A DNA stretch of 20,312 nt from a virus. The notes beneath the pieces were generated by a model. That model saw nothing but the letters and a program-made list of their open reading frames with translations, searched no databases and was not told the origin of the DNA. Positions 6,775-18,292 of the stretch are shown piece after piece; positions within the stretch are counted from its first letter, which is position 1; every line of letters starts with the position of its first letter. The stretch is from the IMG/VR virus record IMGVR_UViG_3300002161_000044, positions 1 through 20,312 of that record. One strand, 5' to 3'. The position numbers and the translations under genes were made by a program.

Positions 6775-6809
6775 TTGGAAAGTTGTAAACGTTGTGTAGA
6801 ATAGCGTAA
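6775..6809 (+). promoter_or_regulatory. Promoter of gene 32, GTGTAGAAT
   Basis: GTGTAGAAT (6794-6802) is one base from the GTGTATAAT early-type element. TTGGAA (6775-6780) lies 16 nt upstream. Predicted start is about 6809, giving a leader of about 69 nt. A 6-bp hairpin CAACCT/AGGTTG (6760-6765, 6772-6777) precedes it and overlaps the -35 region, a variant of the hairpin-promoter arrangement seen at 3112 and 4899. Confidence 0.55.
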
Positions 6810-6814
6810 ATAGA

Positions 6815-6853
6815 CTGCAGACACAATGGAGTGTTTGTAGTTTATGTTTCATT
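6815..6853 (+). promoter_or_regulatory. Candidate pseudoknot in the gene 32 leader (translational autoregulation)
   Basis: Stem 1: CTGCAGACAC (6815-6824) with GTGTTTGTAG (6831-6840), 10 bp including two G-U pairs. Its loop AATGGA (6825-6830) can pair with TTCATT (6848-6853), one G-U included, giving an H-type pseudoknot with a 7-nt connecting loop. It lies 38-63 nt (stem 1) upstream of the ATG, followed by an AU-rich, apparently unpaired stretch to the ribosome site AGGAG (6867-6871). In T4 a pseudoknot at this place starts cooperative gp32 binding on its own mRNA, shutting off translation. A full 10-bp stem 1 is long for a 7-nt loop, so some base pairs may open. Confidence 0.6.
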
Positions 6854-6877: not shown

Positions 6878-7780
6878 ATGGCAAAGCGTAGTTTGGCTGA
6901 TCTGGCTGCAGCATTTGAACAAAAAGCCGGCGGTACTGGTGGTACCGATCAAAGATGGCGGAGCTTTTTTCCCTTCTGGAAAGCTCCTAAGGACAGCGTC
7001 TCTGTTGTCCGTTTCCTACCCGACCAAGATGAAGACAACCCGATGGGTTTCCTGGTGGAAAACCTGACCCATGAACTGGTTGTAAATGGTAAGCGCGAAA
7101 CTGTCGCCTGTCTGAAGATGTTTGGTGAAGATTGCCCGATCTGCGCGCTGTCGCAGAAGTACTATGATCCTAAGGACCCTGAGCACAACGAGGCTCTCGG
7201 TAAGAAGTACTACCGCAAGAAGAGCTACGTTGGACAGGTCATTGTTCTCGAAACTCCGGTTGAGCACAACGCTGAAGAAGTTGTGAAGCTCATCGAATTT
7301 GGTCCTAAGATCTTTAAGCAGATCCAGGCAGCATTTCAGAGCGGTGATCTTGAGAACCCTCCGTACGAGCTGAAGGGTGGCTACAACTTCCGCATCAAGA
7401 AGACGCAGTCTGGCGAATATTTCGACTATGGAACTTCTAGCTTCTCCCCGAAGATGACTGATGTTGGGGATGACGTCATTGAGGCTATCGAGCTCTTTGA
7501 CCTAAAGGCATGGCGCACCCCGAAGACTGCTATGGAACAGCTTGAAGCGATGCTGATTGCTGACCAGACTGGTGCTTCTGTTTCTACTCGTGAAAAGGAA
7601 GCAGCTCCTGTTGCTACTCCTGCCATTTCTAAGCTTTCTAAGGCACTTTCCAGCAGCGATGATGACACCCCTGCTCCTTCTCCTTCCCCCGCAGCATCGG
7701 CTGGTGAGAAGAAGCTTAGCGTCGTTGAGCAGCTCCGTCTCCGCGCAGCGCAGCAGAAGGCAGCACAAGGCGCTGAGTAA
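6878..7780 (+). CDS. 32: gp32-like single-stranded DNA-binding protein, 300 aa
   Basis: Coats single-stranded DNA during phage replication, recombination and repair, and organises UvsX, UvsY and the replisome. The zinc site of T4 gp32 is present: H65, C78, C86 and C89 (THELVVNG..., CLKMFGEDCPIC), with H to C spacing identical to T4. The N-terminus has the basic/Ser cooperativity segment (KRSLADLAAAF) and WRSFFPFWKAP leads into the core. Length is about that of T4 gp32 (301). The C-terminus differs: after about residue 225 it is Ala/Ser/Pro-rich with only one DDD cluster and ends in a basic helix-like stretch (EKKLSVVEQLRLRAAQQK), unlike the strongly acidic T4 tail. Ribosome site AGGAG is 6 nt from the ATG. 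Own promoter and a pseudoknot-type leader precede it; uvsX follows after 80 nt. Confidence 0.93.
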   Translation: MAKRSLADLAAAFEQKAGGTGGTDQRWRSFFPFWKAPKDSVSVVRFLPDQDEDNPMGFLVENLTHELVVNGKRETVACLKMFGEDCPICALSQKYYDPKDPEHNEALGKKYYRKKSYVGQVIVLETPVEHNAEEVVKLIEFGPKIFKQIQAAFQSGDLENPPYELKGGYNFRIKKTQSGEYFDYGTSSFSPKMTDVGDDVIEAIELFDLKAWRTPKTAMEQLEAMLIADQTGASVSTREKEAAPVATPAISKLSKALSSSDDDTPAPSPSPAASAGEKKLSVVEQLRLRAAQQKAAQGAE

Positions 7781-9930: not shown

Positions 9931-10318
9931 AATTTCTAAAGCAACGGCACCATCGGTAATTGGTGGATCATACACCGTAAACAGTGGTGGAGCCGCACCA
10001 ATCATCATAGGACCCGGAACTGTTACGGTTTCGGCTGATGACATTAAATCGCTAACAGGTGCCAAGGAAGACCGTTCAGTTAGAATGCTTATATCTGCAG
10101 TTTCTGGTGAACCAAATGTTGAGTTCTATGAAACACAAGCAGATGGAACAAAAATTAAGGCGTGTTTTGAGCCAGACAGTGGCATGGCTGTAACTGATTT
10201 GACAAAAGTGATGATGCTGATAATTGTGCTGCGTGATGGATCAAACACTGGTCCGAATCCTATCTCCTACATTCGCAGCCATAATCTTGAGCGACACTTT
10301 CGTTTTTCTACAGCATGA
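9917..10318 (+). CDS. Hypothetical protein between uvsY and uvsW, 133 aa
   Basis: I do not recognise this family. It starts inside the last codons of the uvsY-like gene (14-nt overlap) and its TGA overlaps the uvsW ATG (ATGA), so it is locked into the recombination unit. The N-terminus is Gly/Ser/Pro-rich and beta-like (SVIGGSYTVNSGGAAPIIIG); the middle has SADDIKSLTGAKEDRSVRML, and the C-terminus ends in an Arg/His/Phe-rich segment (RSHNLERHFRFSTA). No catalytic motif or membrane segment is seen. The Gly-rich beta style would also fit a small virion protein. Confidence 0.75.
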   Translation: MSSFKISKATAPSVIGGSYTVNSGGAAPIIIGPGTVTVSADDIKSLTGAKEDRSVRMLISAVSGEPNVEFYETQADGTKIKACFEPDSGMAVTDLTKVMMLIIVLRDGSNTGPNPISYIRSHNLERHFRFSTA

Positions 10319-11727
10319 CCAAAACAGCGTATATCACTGTCAGAGATGAGGTTTTTTGCCAAATAAGTGGTCTTGAGCCACAGGATCACAAGTCACTTGA
10401 AGACAAGTTTGCGGTGATGGTTGAAGGTGCCTTTTTTCAACCTTTAGTGAAGCTTGGTCGCTGGGACGGACGCATTAGATTTTTTGACAAGACCGGCAAG
10501 ATCTACTTTCGTCTACTTGACGAGGTCATCCCATACCTCGAAGCTTGGGGGTACCAGCTTGAGCTCAGCGATCTTCGAAAGCCGGTGGATCTGGTAGAAG
10601 AGCGCATCTATCCAGAGTTCTTCAAGGATGACCCAGCGCATGAGCTCGGCGTGGTCCTTCGTCCTTACCAGGTAGATTCAGTCAATGCCGCGCTTGAAGC
10701 AGGATCCGGTTTTATCTTGGCGGCAACTGGATCTGGAAAGACGTGGATGATTGCTGGCTTATCGAAGATCATGAATCGAGCTGGTAATCGCGTCATCGTC
10801 ATCGTTCCGTCATCAGATCTAGTTGAGCAGACGGCGGCAACAATGAGGCTTGGTCAGCTCGACGTTGGCGTCTATAGTGGCTCAAAGAAGGATATTCACC
10901 ACAACACGGTGGTCGCAACTTGGCAGTCACTCCAGAATAATCCGGTAGTAATGCACGACTTCCAGTGCATTATCGTTGATGAAGCACACGGCGCTTCCGC
11001 TAAAACTATCGGCGAGCTGATCAATGACCACGGTAAGCACTGCGCATACCGCTTCGGCTTCACTGGCACCTTCCCTAAACCGAAGATCGACCAGATGTCG
11101 CTTCGCGGCGCCATTGGTAATATCCTCTACGAGATCAGCGCTGCCGACCTCATTAGGATGGGTTACCTGGCACAGCTAGAAATTGAACCTGTTGAGATCC
11201 AAGAGATGGTTGAAGAGGAGTTTCCTGACTACAGTAGCGAGCGAGCGTTCATCAACAAGAACGCCGATCGGCTTGACTTCATTGCTGACCTCATCATTGC
11301 GAAGGCGCAGCAGTACGGCAACACACTTGTGCTGGTCAACTCCATCAAGCAGGGCAAGGAGCTGCAGAAGCTCATCAAGGACAGCGTCTTCCTGCACGGC
11401 GCCACTGAGAACGAGGTGCGCGCCGAGTGGTACCACATGTTCGAGAACCGCGATGACCTCATCGTCATCGCAACTTTTGGTATCGCGTCAACAGGCATCT
11501 CGATCGATCGCATCTTCTGTGAATTCATGATTGATGCTGGCAAGTCGTTCATCAAGTGCATTCAGTCGATTGGCCGTGGCCTCCGCAAGTCGGGTGACAA
11601 GGACCGCGTGCACCTTGTGGACGTGCACAGCAACCTCAAGTGGTCGAAGAAGCACTTTAGAGAACGGAACAAGTTCTATAAAGAGGCGCAATATCCAGTC
11701 ATGAAGGTAGTAAAGGCAAAGCTATGA
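10315..11727 (+). CDS. uvsW: UvsW superfamily 2 helicase, 470 aa
   Basis: In T4, UvsW unwinds R-loops and branched DNA and helps switch from origin-dependent to recombination-dependent replication. Motifs seen in order: Q-like RPYQ (117-120), Walker A AATGSGKT (136-143), DEAH (222-225), GFTGT (248-252, motif III) and QSIGRGLRK (417-425, motif VI with arginine fingers). The N-terminal ~100 residues (FFQPLVKLGRWDGRIRFFD...) match the small N-terminal substrate domain of T4 UvsW. Length is slightly below T4 (about 500). The start ATG overlaps the previous stop; its TGA overlaps the next ATG. The first third is more AT-rich than the region from about 11250 to 11650. Confidence 0.93.
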   Translation: MTKTAYITVRDEVFCQISGLEPQDHKSLEDKFAVMVEGAFFQPLVKLGRWDGRIRFFDKTGKIYFRLLDEVIPYLEAWGYQLELSDLRKPVDLVEERIYPEFFKDDPAHELGVVLRPYQVDSVNAALEAGSGFILAATGSGKTWMIAGLSKIMNRAGNRVIVIVPSSDLVEQTAATMRLGQLDVGVYSGSKKDIHHNTVVATWQSLQNNPVVMHDFQCIIVDEAHGASAKTIGELINDHGKHCAYRFGFTGTFPKPKIDQMSLRGAIGNILYEISAADLIRMGYLAQLEIEPVEIQEMVEEEFPDYSSERAFINKNADRLDFIADLIIAKAQQYGNTLVLVNSIKQGKELQKLIKDSVFLHGATENEVRAEWYHMFENRDDLIVIATFGIASTGISIDRIFCEFMIDAGKSFIKCIQSIGRGLRKSGDKDRVHLVDVHSNLKWSKKHFRERNKFYKEAQYPVMKVVKAKL

Positions 11728-12158: not shown

Positions 12159-12348
12159 ATGCCGACCTGATATGGCTGACGCGCTGTCTATCATCTTCAA
12201 GCACGAAGGAATACAATATTCCCACGGTATTGGGCCAGGGTGTATTGCTATCGAGGTGTTGAAGAAAGATGAGAAGCGAGCCAAGAATGCTCTAGCTGAA
12301 TGGAAGCGCGCAGTCGATGCCATCTACAATCAAATGCAAACACGTTAA
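12148..12348 (+). CDS. Small hypothetical protein, TTG start, 66 aa
   Basis: The TTG at 12148 is preferred because AAAAAGGA ends 6 nt upstream (12138-12141), whereas the in-frame ATG at 12172 has no ribosome site. The product begins MIIECRPDMADALSIIFKHE and reads as strand-helix-strand-helix, ending in a basic helix (KKDEKRAKNALAEWKRAVDA). It resembles a small ferredoxin-like fold in layout, but no family is recognised. It overlaps the previous gene by 11 nt and is followed after 1 nt by the next ATG. Confidence 0.65.
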   Translation: MIIECRPDMADALSIIFKHEGIQYSHGIGPGCIAIEVLKKDEKRAKNALAEWKRAVDAIYNQMQTR

Positions 12349-12349
12349 C

Positions 12350-12859
12350 ATGCAAATAATATCTGAAGCTTCTAGACCCTACATCTTAAGTTCTTTGTCA
12401 TCTCCCATTGGAGTGTCACATTTTTGGACGTTAAGTGGCCATGCTCTAGATTTCAAGCTTGAACCTCTTGAATACCTAGAAGAAACTACTGGCAAGACTA
12501 TTAAAATTAGAGTGCAAAACCTCGATATAGCCCTGCCAGCAAGTTGGTACGTCTTGGCTGTTGACACGGAAACTTACACAGTAGATAGTGTCCCAATTGC
12601 TATGGCAGCAACGATGGGACATCGCCTGTTTTTGTTTTCGCCGGATGATGGAAAACTTGCAACAACCTCAGCCATGGTAGTAGACTACCTACCAAAAGAA
12701 TCTGTAATTCATCCAATGATTCCGAAAGGATCAGCGATGATTCACCCAACAGGACCAGAAACCCTTCACGGTCGCTCTGTTTTTTATGGTATCGTGTGTG
12801 GTCCGCATGATTTACACAGGTGGATTGATGGTAGAACTGTTGGCGATATCTTAGGATAG
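12350..12859 (+). CDS. Hypothetical protein, 169 aa
   Basis: I do not recognise this family. The ATG at 12350 comes one base after the previous stop; upstream in-frame codons would only overlap the 66-aa gene. Beta-rich and soluble, with WYVLAVDTETYTVDSVPIAM in the middle and a His/Pro/Gly-rich C-terminal third (VIHPMIPKGSAMIHPTGP, CGPHDLHRWIDG). The repeated IHP segments and nearby His/Asp residues could bind a metal, but this is speculation. It is the last gene before the late promoter of the endolysin, so early or middle transcripts that cover it may read into the endolysin hairpin. Confidence 0.72.
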   Translation: MQIISEASRPYILSSLSSPIGVSHFWTLSGHALDFKLEPLEYLEETTGKTIKIRVQNLDIALPASWYVLAVDTETYTVDSVPIAMAATMGHRLFLFSPDDGKLATTSAMVVDYLPKESVIHPMIPKGSAMIHPTGPETLHGRSVFYGIVCGPHDLHRWIDGRTVGDILG

Positions 12860-12864
12860 CGGCC

Positions 12865-12878
12865 GATAAATAAGGTCT
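12865..12878 (+). promoter_or_regulatory. Late-type promoter GATAAATA upstream of the endolysin
   Basis: GATAAATA (12865-12872) differs from the T4 late consensus TATAAATA only at the first base. T4 late transcription starts about 6 nt after this element, here about 12877-12879, within the 5' arm of the hairpin at 12870-12901. The lysis gene directly downstream is the expected kind of late target. Confidence 0.6.
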
Positions 12879-12901
12879 CAAATAGAAAAAGGAGACCTTA
12901 T
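12870..12901 (+). promoter_or_regulatory. Hairpin hiding the endolysin ribosome site and start codon
   Basis: ATAAGGTCTC (12870-12879) is the exact reverse complement of GAGACCTTAT (12892-12901), with a 12-nt loop. The 3' arm contains the last bases of the Shine-Dalgarno AAGGAG (12889-12894) and the first two bases of the ATG (12900-12902). Read-through transcripts from upstream would fold and block translation; transcripts from the late promoter would lack most of the 5' arm. This is the design known for T4 lysozyme gene e. Confidence 0.7.
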
Positions 12902-13514
12902 GGTAACATTTTCTAAAGCATTTGAAAAGGCAGTAGATCATGCGATGCTCTATGAGGTAGGATCTCACTGGGATTTAAATGTTCCTGGTGTTCGGGAAGG
13001 ACTTATCCAAACTAGAGAGCAACGTAGGGCTGTTGGTTATGTAAATGATCCTGCCGATAGAGGAGGAGAGACAAAATTTGGCGTCGCCAAACGCCCAAAT
13101 CCAGATCTTGACATTACTAATCTAGATTGGGAAGGTGCCAAAAGGGTGTACTTTAGGAGATATTGGCTGTCCGCTAACTGCGATGATTTGGACCTAATGT
13201 CACCTAGACTAGCAATTCTTCATTTTGATGGTGCAGTCAACCATGGCGTTGGGCGTTCAGGCAGATTTCTGCAAAGAGCGGTTGGAGCCACCGAAGATGG
13301 TGACGTAGGCCCTGCAACTCTCAGAGGAGTTCAGGCGGTCATCTTATCAAGGGGTGACATCACGATCTGCAACCTAATCTGTGATTATCGCGAAGCTTTC
13401 TATGAAGCAATTATTAGGAATGACCCAAGCCAAGAACGATTCCGTCGTGGGTGGATGAGGCGCATCAGAGAGATGCGAGAATTTACAACCAGCCCAGAAA
13501 TGAATTTTCAATAA
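12900..13514 (+). CDS. Endolysin, GH108-type N-acetylmuramidase with peptidoglycan-binding domain, 204 aa
   Basis: Lysis enzyme cutting the glycan backbone of peptidoglycan. The family signature YVNDPADRGGETKFGVAKR is at 48-66, followed by the helical core (YFRRYWL) and a PG_binding_3-type region (FDGAVNHGVGRSGRFLQRAV, then DGDVGPATLRGVQAV). Common GH108 proteins have a catalytic Glu in an EGGYVND motif; here YEVG (E19) is separated from GYVND by an insert of about 25 residues (to 47), so E19 is the likely catalytic residue, with E57 as alternative. No signal peptide, so it needs a holin to reach the wall. A good AAGGAG site precedes the ATG but is locked in a hairpin; a late-type promoter sits just upstream. 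Confidence 0.85.
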   Translation: MVTFSKAFEKAVDHAMLYEVGSHWDLNVPGVREGLIQTREQRRAVGYVNDPADRGGETKFGVAKRPNPDLDITNLDWEGAKRVYFRRYWLSANCDDLDLMSPRLAILHFDGAVNHGVGRSGRFLQRAVGATEDGDVGPATLRGVQAVILSRGDITICNLICDYREAFYEAIIRNDPSQERFRRGWMRRIREMREFTTSPEMNFQ

Positions 13515-13579: not shown

Positions 13580-13834
13580 ATGACATATGATGAAACACCC
13601 CCTAGACTGTTCACTGTAGTGACCTCAGCAAAAGTGAACTACAACATGGACACTGTAGAATATCTAATCAATCAGGAACATGAAAGAAGGGCTGCTGCTG
13701 GGCAATCAAGATTGAACACGCAAGAAATAAATGAATTTCGTAGACAGTTGATCGTGAAGCTTATCATTCAAAATGATGCTGAAGCAGCGATCAACTTAAG
13801 ACCGTCTACAACTCGCAGTACCCTATTTGGATAA
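13580..13834 (+). CDS. Hypothetical protein upstream of nrdA, 84 aa
   Basis: I do not recognise this family. TTGGAG gives a ribosome site about 6 nt before the ATG. After a short extended N-terminus (TPPRLFTVVTSAKVNYNMD) it is mostly helical (TVEYLINQEHERRAAAGQSR, INEFRRQLIVKLIIQN) and ends STTRSTLFG. The nrdA ribosome site (AAGGA, 13832-13836) overlaps its stop, so translation of the two is coupled. The 65-nt spacer before it holds a weak 5-bp hairpin (CTGCA/TGCAG) and no promoter I can support. Confidence 0.72.
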   Translation: MTYDETPPRLFTVVTSAKVNYNMDTVEYLINQEHERRAAAGQSRLNTQEINEFRRQLIVKLIIQNDAEAAINLRPSTTRSTLFG

Positions 13835-13844
13835 GGAAAAAGTA

Positions 13845-16142
13845 ATGATCAAATGCATTGTTAAACGAAATGGCGCGCAGGAATCTTTTTCACCTGCTAA
13901 AGTAAATGGGTGGGGCACTTGGGCAGCACGCTCTCTTGGTTCTCAAATGGATTGGGCATCAGTGGTGCTTGAAGCAGTTAACCAATGCCCAGAAATTTGC
14001 ACTTCACTTTTACTGCAAGAGACACTGATAAAAGTCTGCCTAAGCAAGAAGACGTGGGAACACAATCGTATGGCTGGACGCCTCTATGCCGCTCTTCTTG
14101 AGAGAGTCATTTACGACAAAAAGCGGCCAACTGTAAAGCAACTCCACTTGCAGCTTGCCGAAGTTGGAATGATGGTAAAACTAGATTACTCAGATGAGGA
14201 ATATGATCAAATAGAGAGCATCATTGATCATAAACAGGACCTTAAGTATCCGCACTATCAGATAAATCAGATTAGATACAAGTATGCCCTGCGCAACAAG
14301 AAGACTGGCAAAGAATATGAAACACCACAGTTTGTTTACATGCGCATGGCTATGGCTCTCGCTGAAAAGCTGCCAAAGGACGAACGATTACATCATATTT
14401 CAAAATGGTACGAGCACTTTAGCCACAATCGACTCAATGCGCCAACACCAAACTATGTTAACTTAGGAACAAAGCTTAATGGGTATGCTTCTTGTTGTCT
14501 CTACACAACTGATGATACAGCGCCTTCTCTTGCTGCTGGTGATCACATAGCATATATGATGACAGTCATGAGTGCTGGTATAGGCACGCATATCAATACG
14601 CGTTCTCTCGGTGATGCTGTTCGTGGTGGTCTTGTTCAGCACCAGGGTAAGCTTCCATACTATCGTTCAATGGTAGGAGCTATTGGAGCAAATCTTCAAA
14701 ACGGGCGCGGGGGTGCTGCTACTGTGTACTATACAGCATATGACCCAGAAGTTGAGGTGATTCAGAAGCTTCGTCATCCACTTACACCAGCAACAAAGAA
14801 AATCTCCGGCTGTCATTATAGTTTTGGCTCCAATAAATTGTTTGCACGTAAGGTTGCCAAGAATGAGCAGTACGCTCCATTCTCATTTGGTGAACGGCCA
14901 GATTTATATTTCGCTCAGTACGCTAAGGATCAATCTGTTTTTGAAAAGCTTTATACTGAATATGAAAAGAATGCTAAAGTTAAATTGTCAGCCCGAGAAG
15001 TTTTACTGGGTGCATTAACCCAAGCGTACGAGACGGGGGTGCAGTACTTGCACATGACGGATGCTCTTAACATTCACACACCTTTTAAAGAGACTATATT
15101 CTCTTCCAATTTATGCGCAGAAATAGGAATACCTACAAAACATTACGCGTCAGTTGAAGATCTTTATAAGAAAAAGTACGATGAGAAAAAAGACGGCGAG
15201 ATTGGTCTATGTTCACTTGCAGGAATTATTGTTTCCAACATTGAGAACGATGAGCAATACGCAGAGGTTGCGTACTACGCGTTAAAGATGATTGACGTAT
15301 GTATCCACAAATCAGACTATGTTTTCCCGAGCCTTGAACATACAGCAAAAGCCCGTCTTTCTGCAGGTGTTGGTATTCTTGGATTGGCGCACCTGATGGC
15401 AAAGGAAGGCAGACTATATGATACACGAGATGGTCGCAATTTCATACATGAGATATCAGAGACGCATATGTGGCACCTTATTAATGCCTCTCTTCGTCTA
15501 GGCAAAGAGCTTGGTAATGCTGAGTGGATGTGCAAGACGAGGTGGCCCGAAGGTTGGTTGCCAATTGATACATATGAGAAACGTGTAGACGAGCTCGTCA
15601 CCGTTGGGCTGAAGCGTGACTGGGAAGGCCTGCGCCAGCAGATAATCGCTAACAAAGGTATTCGCAACTCGGTATTGGTGGCGCACATGCCAGGTGAGAG
15701 CTCAACGATTGCAGCAGGTACGACCAATGGCCCGTACCCTGTCCGCGAGCTGTATATCATGAAGACAAACGACACACAGGTGAATCATTGGGCAGCGCCT
15801 GATGGTACTAAGCTGAAGAACCGCTACCAGTCTGCGTGGGACATCAAAACATCTGACATGATCAAGGTCTATGCCATCATGCAAAAGTGGACCGATCAGG
15901 CAATCAGCGCCGACCTCTTCGTTAAGATTCAAGGTGATGAAAAGGTGTCAAGCGCAGCCATCATCCAAGACTACCTTGATATGGTTAAGTACGGTATGAA
16001 GACTCGCTACTACGTCAACAGTCTGACTTCATCGGGTATAGACCTCACAAAGACAGAGAACGCTGTGGTATCTGCAGTAAAAATATATGAAGAACCACAA
16101 CCACCGAAAGATGACCAATACTGCGAAAGTTGTACATTGTAA
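13845..16142 (+). CDS. nrdA: Ribonucleotide reductase class Ia large subunit NrdA, 765 aa
   Basis: Reduces ribonucleoside diphosphates to deoxynucleotides with NrdB. Features seen: an N-terminal ATP-cone-like segment (IVKRNGAQESFSPAKVN), an active-site Cys (C217 in ASCCLY), the radical site N422-L-C424-A-E426, the partner Cys C456 (GLCSLAG), TIAAGTTNGPYP, and the tandem tyrosines of the radical path (TRYYVNS). The C-terminus ends CESCTL, the CxxC pair that passes electrons from glutaredoxin. Length matches T4 NrdA (about 750). The ATG at 13845 is chosen for its AAGGA site; the in-frame TTG at 13827 has none. nrdB follows after 2 nt. Base composition shifts from AT-rich to more GC-rich near 15540. 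Confidence 0.96.
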   Translation: MIKCIVKRNGAQESFSPAKVNGWGTWAARSLGSQMDWASVVLEAVNQCPEICTSLLLQETLIKVCLSKKTWEHNRMAGRLYAALLERVIYDKKRPTVKQLHLQLAEVGMMVKLDYSDEEYDQIESIIDHKQDLKYPHYQINQIRYKYALRNKKTGKEYETPQFVYMRMAMALAEKLPKDERLHHISKWYEHFSHNRLNAPTPNYVNLGTKLNGYASCCLYTTDDTAPSLAAGDHIAYMMTVMSAGIGTHINTRSLGDAVRGGLVQHQGKLPYYRSMVGAIGANLQNGRGGAATVYYTAYDPEVEVIQKLRHPLTPATKKISGCHYSFGSNKLFARKVAKNEQYAPFSFGERPDLYFAQYAKDQSVFEKLYTEYEKNAKVKLSAREVLLGALTQAYETGVQYLHMTDALNIHTPFKETIFSSNLCAEIGIPTKHYASVEDLYKKKYDEKKDGEIGLCSLAGIIVSNIENDEQYAEVAYYALKMIDVCIHKSDYVFPSLEHTAKARLSAGVGILGLAHLMAKEGRLYDTRDGRNFIHEISETHMWHLINASLRLGKELGNAEWMCKTRWPEGWLPIDTYEKRVDELVTVGLKRDWEGLRQQIIANKGIRNSVLVAHMPGESSTIAAGTTNGPYPVRELYIMKTNDTQVNHWAAPDGTKLKNRYQSAWDIKTSDMIKVYAIMQKWTDQAISADLFVKIQGDEKVSSAAIIQDYLDMVKYGMKTRYYVNSLTSSGIDLTKTENAVVSAVKIYEEPQPPKDDQYCESCTL

Positions 16143-16144
16143 CC

Positions 16145-17242
16145 ATGAGCAAAGTATTCAACACCGACAAGACCCCAGAACAATATCGTGCAAAGTCACC
16201 ACTTTTTCTAGGGGATGATCCTGGACTGTTTGATACAGTCAATAAGCACTATCCTAATATCTGGTCAATCTACAAGACTATGAAGTCACTAGACTGGTCA
16301 GAGGATGAGTTTGATTACACGCAGTGCAACATTGACTTTAAGAACTGCCCCCGCCCAGTATACGATATGATGATAAGGACTCTTGCGTGGCAATGGGAGG
16401 CAGATAGCGTTGCATCTCGCAGTGTTGCACCGCTCATGGCACCATTTATTAGTGACAGCTCGCTTTGGGCGGCGTGGCAGCGTATATCTGACAATGAGAT
16501 CGTGCACGCTGCCACTTACAGCGAAATCGTGCGAATGTGCTTTGACGACCCTGAAAAGGTGCTGGCTGATATACTGTCAGTTAAACAAAGTCTTACACGT
16601 CTTACTATTGTCAAGCAGATATTTGATGACCTTCATGTTGCATCACATCAATATGCCTTAGGAATCATTTCAAAGGATGATGCCTATGATGTAATTTTCA
16701 TGACCGTAGTAGCCCTTTTGCTACTCGAGCGAGTACAGTTCACTGCAAGCTTTGGCATTACCTTTACCATTTGCAGCACAAACTACTTTCAACCAGTTGG
16801 AAAGGCAGTACAGAAGATTGCGCAGGATGAGTTAGAGGTGCATGCAGAATTTGACAAGGAGGTACTTCGCGTGGAGCTTGCAACCGAGCGTGGGCAGGAT
16901 GCCTATCGCCGCCTCAAGCCACGCATCAAGGCACTCTGCGATGAGGTCGTTGACAGCGAATTGACATGGACAGATTACCTCTTTAGCGAGGGGCGTGAGC
17001 TTGTTGGCACCAACGCGTCAAAGGTCAAGAACTGGGTGCTCTTCAATGCCCGTGATGTCTACCAGTTTCTTGACATAGAGAGCGAGCACAAGTTCCCGAG
17101 GACCAACCCTATGCCTCACTTAGAAGACTGGATTAACATTGGAAAATCGCAAGCTGCTCCACAGGAACAAGATAACAATCAGTATAAAGTTGGAACCATT
17201 GTACGTGATGATTCAACCGTAAACTTTGAGGTAGATTTTTAA
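16145..17242 (+). CDS. nrdB: Ribonucleotide reductase class Ia small subunit NrdB, 365 aa
   Basis: Di-iron tyrosyl-radical subunit partnering NrdA. Metal ligands and radical Tyr fit E. coli NrdB spacing: D87 (WEADSVASRS), E118, H121 and the radical Y125 (NEIVHAATYSEI), then later Glu and Glu/His ligands in QDELEVHAEF. The C-terminal tail (DSTVNFEVDF) is the short acidic-hydrophobic peptide that docks in NrdA. The ATG at 16145 is 2 nt after the nrdA stop; an in-frame ATG at 16130 would overlap nrdA and lacks a ribosome site. A glutaredoxin follows after 9 nt, so reductase and its reductant are one unit. Confidence 0.95.
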   Translation: MSKVFNTDKTPEQYRAKSPLFLGDDPGLFDTVNKHYPNIWSIYKTMKSLDWSEDEFDYTQCNIDFKNCPRPVYDMMIRTLAWQWEADSVASRSVAPLMAPFISDSSLWAAWQRISDNEIVHAATYSEIVRMCFDDPEKVLADILSVKQSLTRLTIVKQIFDDLHVASHQYALGIISKDDAYDVIFMTVVALLLLERVQFTASFGITFTICSTNYFQPVGKAVQKIAQDELEVHAEFDKEVLRVELATERGQDAYRRLKPRIKALCDEVVDSELTWTDYLFSEGRELVGTNASKVKNWVLFNARDVYQFLDIESEHKFPRTNPMPHLEDWINIGKSQAAPQEQDNNQYKVGTIVRDDSTVNFEVDF

Positions 17243-17251
17243 GGAGAACTC

Positions 17252-17512
17252 GTGTTTCACATTTACTCAAAACCAAACTGTGCATTTTGTGACCAAGCAA
17301 AGGCACTTCTGACTGCTAAAAACCTACCTTTCAAAGAATTCATCATGGATGTTGGTCAACCAAAAGTTGAAGGAAAAACCTACGTATCCCGTGAAAAGGT
17401 ACTAGAAACTTTTCCAAGTGCACGCACTATGCCACAGATTGCCCTTGTGAAGGATGGTAACTTCCAGCCAATCGGTGGATTCGTAGAACTAAGGGAGCAG
17501 ATAGGTGCTTGA
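17252..17512 (+). CDS. Glutaredoxin, 86 aa (NrdC-type role)
   Basis: Thiol-disulfide carrier that most likely regenerates NrdA, whose C-terminal CxxC is encoded just upstream. The active site is CAFC at residues 10-13 (KPNCAFCDQAK), the cis-Pro motif is TMPQIAL, and GGFVEL near the C-terminus fits the glutaredoxin fold; size is typical. The start is a GTG at 17252 with a strong AAGGAG ribosome site at the end of nrdB. The motif CAFC differs from the common CPYC and from T4 thioredoxin-like NrdC (CVYC). Its stop overlaps the next gene's start region by 8 nt. Confidence 0.88.
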   Translation: MFHIYSKPNCAFCDQAKALLTAKNLPFKEFIMDVGQPKVEGKTYVSREKVLETFPSARTMPQIALVKDGNFQPIGGFVELREQIGA

Positions 17513-17723: not shown

Positions 17724-17776
17724 CAATCCACTAGCCAAGATTAATAGCATTAGTTGCTAAATAGGCGCCCTAATTT

Positions 17777-17808
17777 GAAAGCCACCTTAAAGGTGGCTTT
17801 CCTGTTTT
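17777..17808 (+). terminator. Strong terminator after the nrd unit
   Basis: GAAAGCCACC (17777-17786) pairs perfectly with GGTGGCTTTC (17792-17801) around TTAAA, followed by CTGTTTT. The A-run on the left arm would also serve transcription from the other side. It closes the 13580-17723 unit and precedes the late promoter at 17822. The rest of 17724-17857 holds only a weak 5-bp hairpin (TAGCA/TGCTA). Confidence 0.85.
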
Positions 17809-17821
17809 CGGGAGTGATATT

Positions 17822-17835
17822 CATAAATACTATTC
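17822..17835 (+). promoter_or_regulatory. Late-type promoter CATAAATA
   Basis: CATAAATACTATTC (17822-17835) differs from the T4 late element TATAAATA in the first base only and has the usual pyrimidine-rich start region. Start of transcription would be about 17835, giving a leader of about 23 nt before the ATG at 17858. It lies just after a strong terminator, so the next gene appears to be transcribed separately. Confidence 0.65.
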
Positions 17836-17857: not shown

Positions 17858-18292
17858 ATGTCATCACAGCAAACTTTATCCAATATAGTTTTTGACGTAT
17901 TTGGTCATCAAGTCAACTTAATGGCAATGGCATTTATTGTTCTTGTTGCTGGAATCTTGTTTCTTTTTTGGAGAATTCAAAGATCGCAGAAACTTGATTT
18001 TGCCGATATGATAACCAAGGATGGTCAAACTGTTTCACTTACAAAGGTCCTTCAGTTAATTGGTGGATTGACGGCAACATGGATAATGATAAAGCTGACA
18101 TTAACCGGTGGATTAACTGACGCAATTCTGGGAATATATCTTGCATACGTGGGCGGTGTTGAAGGGTTTAGTAAGTACGTGACTGCTAAATATCAGTACA
18201 AGGAATTTAGCGTGAGACAGCCCGCTGAAGCGAGAATCTCAAGTTCGGATGAATTTGCAGAAAATCCATCGCTAAAGCCACCAAAAGACTAA
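17858..18292 (+). CDS. Late membrane protein, holin candidate, 144 aa
   Basis: Three hydrophobic segments are visible: about 21-39 (LMAMAFIVLVAGILFLFW), 64-84 (VLQLIGGLTATWIMIKLTL) and 87-106 (GLTDAILGIYLAYVGGVEGF). A charged cytoplasmic-type loop (RIQRSQKLDFADMITKDG) lies between the first two, and a polar C-terminal tail of about 35 residues ends SLKPPKD. Size, helix number and a late-type promoter fit a class I holin, which would release the endolysin encoded at 12900. This is inference: no motif defines it, and a virion-associated membrane protein is possible. The ATG follows a weak AGG site. Confidence 0.6.
   Translation: MSSQQTLSNIVFDVFGHQVNLMAMAFIVLVAGILFLFWRIQRSQKLDFADMITKDGQTVSLTKVLQLIGGLTATWIMIKLTLTGGLTDAILGIYLAYVGGVEGFSKYVTAKYQYKEFSVRQPAEARISSSDEFAENPSLKPPKD

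Follow-up and report, generated by a model that had tools for sequence, protein, structure and literature searches.

How an endolysin gene placed inside a cluster of DNA-metabolism genes could be kept silent until late in infection is the question raised by this locus. The window, meaning the whole stretch of 20,312 bases analyzed here, is one virus record from end to end (IMG/VR IMGVR_UViG_3300002161_000044). Its + strand carries a T4-like DNA-metabolism cluster comprising a gp32-like ssDNA-binding protein, a RecA/UvsX-like protein, a UvsW-like helicase, several small ORFs, a GH108 endolysin, NrdA, NrdB, glutaredoxin, and a dCMP-deaminase-type protein. The genes around the endolysin were located as follows:

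10315–11727, + strand: UvsW-like helicase, upstream part of the co-directional DNA-metabolism cluster
12317–12859, + strand: conserved ORF (phrog_11279, function unknown), syntenic marker for the endolysin slot
12900–13514, + strand: endolysin of 204 aa, GH108 (PF05838) and PG_binding_3 (PF09374)
13827–17512, + strand: nrdA, nrdB, and glutaredoxin, downstream co-directional cluster

The endolysin is encoded on the same strand as its DNA-metabolism neighbours on both sides, and a terminator scan of the window listed no likely terminator directly upstream of it. Judged from this arrangement, a position downstream of a co-directional cluster would expose the gene to early read-through. The ORF at 12317–12859 gave weak results in single-protein scans; an alignment of it was effective. 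A DNA search of public phages with the window region returned no match.

The endolysin scored 60.9 bits against PF05838 and 46.8 bits against PF09374, both above the curated cut-offs, and the PF05838 catalytic domain is followed by PF09374, as in the GH108 endolysin architecture. T4 lysozyme e, in contrast, belongs to PF00959 (Phage_lysozyme), and no homology between the two enzymes was detectable. The description of the enzyme in the first-pass annotation, as GH108-type and not homologous to T4 lysozyme, was therefore upheld.

Five features were placed at the start of the endolysin gene:

12865–12872, + strand: T4-type late promoter element GATAAATA, predicted to occupy −13 to −6
12870–12879, + strand: hairpin 5′ arm ATAAGGTCTC, the initial 8 nt of which precede the predicted late +1
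12878, + strand: predicted late transcription start (+1), placed by T4 spacing, 6 bases past the element
12889–12894, + strand: Shine-Dalgarno (SD) sequence AAGGAG, with GAG (12892–12894) inside the 3′ arm
12892–12901, + strand: hairpin 3′ arm GAGACCTTAT, taking in SD bases and the AU of the start codon

The order of the leader is GATAAATA-AGGTCTC-(12 nt)-GAGACCTT-ATG, with a hairpin loop of 12 nt and the endolysin ATG at 12900–12902. The two arms were 100% complementary over 10 nt according to the repeat finder, and the perfect 10-bp inverted repeat claimed earlier over part of the SD and the AUG was thus exact in the sequence. It had also been claimed that a late element overlaps the 5′ arm and that a start near 12878 removes most of it. 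GATAAATA does overlap the arm, and since the first base of the T4 late consensus lies at −13 (PMC2988020), the start is placed at 12878, six bases past the element. Of the 10 bases in the 5′ arm, the first 8 (12870–12877) would then be lost and the last two would remain. ATAAATA by itself was not enriched in the window (2 found versus 1.43 expected), and an Rfam search gave no match. The evidence is the combination of element and hairpin together with its conservation, not the presence of ATAAATA alone.

In T4, the gene e leader folds into a hairpin that hides the SD and the AUG, and its 5′ arm is encoded by late TATAAATA elements; long early transcripts are silent, and late transcripts are translated (PMC3014915). 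On the basis of geometry, modelled folds, and comparison with relatives, the endolysin leader of the window is very probably a transcription-start-dependent translational switch of this type, for which we infer promoter use, read-through, and an effect on translation. Early or middle transcripts that cross the recombination and nucleotide-metabolism cluster would include the 5′ arm; the read-through RNA would fold the hairpin, burying part of the SD and the AUG, and would yield little or no endolysin. A late sigma (gp55-type) RNA polymerase would use GATAAATA at 12865 and start near 12878, and the resulting transcript, lacking most of the 5′ arm (8 of 10 bases), would form no hairpin and would be translated. 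With translation from late transcripts, the lysis enzyme would accumulate only late.

RNA 12866–12910 was predicted to fold to −13.1 kcal/mol (z = −4.8 against dinucleotide shuffles), and none of 200 shuffles was as stable. The predicted cost of opening the start region was 13.6 kcal/mol on the read-through RNA, a value matched in one of 200 shuffles in which the start region was fixed and the upstream 74 nt were shuffled. On the late RNA it dropped to 8.6 kcal/mol, the residual cost arising because early codons can pair with the 5′ end of that RNA. Folding of the long versus the late-start leader, proposed earlier as a check, gave a divided answer: the SD (12890–12894) was predicted to be freed, its unpaired probability rising from 0.40 to 0.75–0.97, and the cost of 8.6 kcal/mol persisted. 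The late transcript of the window was predicted to be less open than those of most relatives, and this modelled residual structure is where the case for the window itself is weakest.

Two scans of viral contigs yielded 42 distinct GH108 leaders sharing the N-terminus, picked by protein similarity and not by leader sequence. A NNTAAATA element was present 8–60 nt upstream of the start in 39 of them, and no late element was found in the other three (L006, L094, and L096). The TAAATA core was invariant across 19 aligned relatives, and the gp55 family (phrog_234) was present in 9 of 15 related records.

The median opening cost of the 39 endolysin leaders was 13.6 kcal/mol on read-through RNA versus 3.9 kcal/mol on late RNA, with a median drop of 9.5 kcal/mol. 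Freeing of the start region by late-start truncation was predicted in most relatives, the drop reaching at least 4 kcal/mol in 35 of 39 leaders and at least 8 kcal/mol in 23; little change was observed, despite a late element, in L093, L102, L104, and L116. When the position of +1 was varied, the relatives lost structure once it lay about 5 nt or more past the element. On the same scale, opening costs changed from 16.2 to 1.6–4.1 for T4 gene e, from 16.1 to 3.4 for gene 49, and from 13.7 to 0.4 for I-TevII, and the computed profile of T4 e is the same as that of the GH108 endolysin leaders.

As a control set, 81 other genes with a late element, an SD, and an ATG were taken from 13 of the same contigs. 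Their median drop was 3.4 kcal/mol, with at least 4 kcal/mol in 36 and at least 8 kcal/mol in 11, versus the larger endolysin drops (Mann-Whitney P = 7e-8). The ranking within contigs is the safer test, because some leaders are near-duplicates; by this measure the endolysin came first in 8 of 13 contigs, compared with 2.6 expected (P = 6e-4). As 11 of the 81 other late genes also dropped by at least 8 kcal/mol, the device is not exclusive to endolysins.

Covariation was assessed in 19 leaders with the overlapping layout of 5′ arm and promoter. In the arm-swap test, each leader's own arms gave −12.6 kcal/mol versus −6.9 kcal/mol for swapped arms (0 of 100,000 permutations), and 80.7% of alignment cells were paired versus at most 51% for slid registers, figures that lean towards structure since the 19 were picked because the layout was visible; the comparison of 39 leaders is free of that bias. 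Double changes occurred at 6 of 9 pairs of the hairpin alignment. The leader alignment that the first-pass annotation had called for thus revealed pairing conserved in relatives with compensatory changes.

The position of the promoter relative to the hairpin was variable. The 5′ arm overlapped the late element in about half of the relatives; in the remainder, nearly half, it lay upstream of the element, with the promoter in the loop or in the 3′ arm, the extreme being L092 with 19-nt arms. The layouts were interleaved on the endolysin tree, where well-supported branches forced at least four changes of the overlapping layout, and this interleaving points to repeated rebuilding of the switch.

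These data also bear on other explanations of the repeat. The one with the most in its favour, though still unlikely, is that the hairpin represses every transcript alike, through general structure at the start region, and that this phage has no early/late switching; in its favour, the opening cost predicted for the late transcript of the window is still 8.6 kcal/mol. The climb of SD unpaired probability from 0.40 to 0.75–0.97 on the late RNA speaks against it, as does the nearly full opening of the relatives on late RNA, and the leftover structure draws on coding bases, which emerge only once the SD and the AUG have done so. It is rather less probable that the repeat is a DNA palindrome, serving as an operator for a regulator of the late promoter and not as an RNA hairpin. 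The repeat does overlap the late element, and T4 I-TevI binds an operator overlapping its own late promoter (PMC2988022), but among the relatives the pairing persists through wide variation in arm sequence and loop length, and the position of the 3′ arm follows that of the SD and the AUG. In nearly half of the relatives, moreover, the promoter comes after the 5′ arm, with no shared site.

A role as intrinsic terminator, or as stabiliser of an mRNA end, in the gap between the upstream ORF and the endolysin is very improbable, even though a stable hairpin between two genes would suit either role, for no U-run follows the stem, the hairpin is absent from the terminator scan list, and it overlaps the SD and the AUG and would be lost from the late transcript. 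The likelihood of a chance hairpin is close to negligible: several other inverted repeats of at least 10 bp with short loops do occur in the 20-kb window, but here pairing is kept despite diverged sequence in dozens of relatives. The T4 e-like timing device put forward by the first-pass annotation is, as far as models and comparisons reach, supported by geometry, predicted folds, conservation with covariation, and neighbourhood.

With regard to neighbourhood, the order uvsW–ORF12317–endolysin was common to about 28 loci, on one strand and often followed by nrdA-nrdB-grx, which defines a conserved co-directional slot, uvsX-uvsW-ORF-endolysin-nrdA/B-grx. In a second group the endolysin stood behind SbcD/SbcC-like (gp47/46-like) genes, with an opposite-strand ORF between them in some members; early read-through would be expected to reach it there too. 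In L299/L300 (3597–4163) the slot held an unrelated PF11860 N-acetylmuramidase with a strong, different hairpin (drop 17.0), and in L085 (3834–4406) and L279 (3568) a PF11860 muramidase with a late element and without the hairpin; the PF11860 assignment was Pfam-tested for L085 and L299. The earlier suggestion of convergent or modular reuse can accordingly be narrowed. So far as these data reach, the convergent reading fits better, since arms and layouts change often on the tree and the unrelated muramidase has a different hairpin or none. The modular one fits less well, yet in L005 and L090 the hairpin remains with the endolysin despite extra DNA separating the upstream gene.

Two further slots were recorded. 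The muramidase at L274:4303 is similar in sequence to the PF11860 enzymes and showed a weak opening change. At L084:1721–1754 (minus strand) the late element and hairpin persist ahead of nothing more than a 28-aa ORF, and this 40.9-kb contig yielded no GH108 gene.

Among cultured phages, the T4-like Pseudomonas phages Astolliot and Milchi carry a GH108 endolysin adjoining rnl, pnk, and NAD genes. At the start of this gene is a strong hairpin, the loop of which contains a TAAATA element; the annotation of their records does not mention the leader. They share with the window the enzyme family, the DNA-metabolism neighbourhood, and the strong start hairpin with TAAATA. They differ in that their late element sits in the loop, preceded by the 5′ arm, in their other neighbours (rnl, pnk, and NAD genes), and in a shorter endolysin N-terminus. 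Being cultured, both make the switch testable. Melnitz-1 and DLP_6 were rejected as examples: the GH108-like gene of the former is only distantly similar and has no late element just upstream, and in the latter the match is internal to a 720-aa gene that carries a lysozyme annotation and adjoins baseplate genes.

Until now, the T4 gene e switch has been regarded as belonging to T4 and its close relatives. According to a 2010 review, several phages have a gene e without such a structure, and many T4-type phages have no gene e (PMC3014915). I-TevI/I-TevII, gene 49, soc, and Aeh1 mobE are late genes embedded in early or middle transcripts, and in each the SD stays hidden until transcription starts from a late promoter inside the hairpin (PMC2988022, PMC3014915). 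The products controlled by those hairpins are homing endonucleases, a resolvase, and a capsid protein, whereas that of the window would guard an endolysin gene. T4 e itself adjoins nudE and ipIII and has two late elements, whereas the window endolysin lies between uvsW/ORF12317 and nrdA and has one, and the arm sequences of the two hairpins are unrelated. Searches of the open-access literature gave no account of such a device at an endolysin other than e. The GH108 switch belongs with the known T4 e-type switches; what is new is the breadth, the unrelated enzymes, and the repeated rebuilding.

That the device occurs at a non-homologous endolysin, across dozens of diverse T4-like phages, suggests a recurring RNA safeguard of the lysis clock. 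We lean slightly towards a broader view, in which late-start hairpins would be the default guard of endolysin genes in early or middle clusters of T4-like phages, whatever the enzyme family. They would be kept by selection on timing rather than on sequence and repeatedly rebuilt, arms and promoter position changing and unrelated enzymes swapped into the slot acquiring their own hairpin. The GH108 leaders provide natural replicates for studying a regulatory RNA that is kept while its sequence turns over, and late-start hairpins offer a means of predicting which genes within early operons are in fact late.

Other hairpins and late elements were also noted in the window. At 6805–6845, a CGTAAATA element and, after it, a 15-pair hairpin (ATAGACTGCAGACAC/GTGTTTGTAGTTTAT) precede the gp32-like ssDNA-binding gene, the SD (about 6866) of which lies outside the hairpin, with the ATG at 6878; this hairpin may be a gp32-type autoregulatory leader or a terminator. 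At 17756–17829, a GCTAAATA element, a strong terminator-like hairpin (17777–17801), and a CATAAATA element (17822) precede the ORF at 17858, the start region of which is not occluded. A perfect 14-bp inverted repeat with a 6-nt loop at 2828–2861, just past a long tail-fibre-like ORF (194–2806), is probably a transcript end.

In the control set, the strongest non-endolysin cases included endonucleases in L177, L180, and L258 (PHROG endonuclease, GIY-YIG homing endonuclease, and HNH), so that endonuclease genes are among the strong switch cases, as in T4. A conserved 119-aa ORF in two related phages, L196 and L241, had a late-start hairpin among the strongest (drops of 14.2 and 18.5 kcal/mol, respectively), and its L196 copy gave no PHROG match. 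A conserved membrane-protein-like ORF of about 300 aa (MGFIxILxLTTLxIAG...) was found in four phages (L337:5208, L344:5158, L345:2296, and L346:4291), in each case with a late element and a strong start hairpin, the drops ranging from 7.6 to 15.0.
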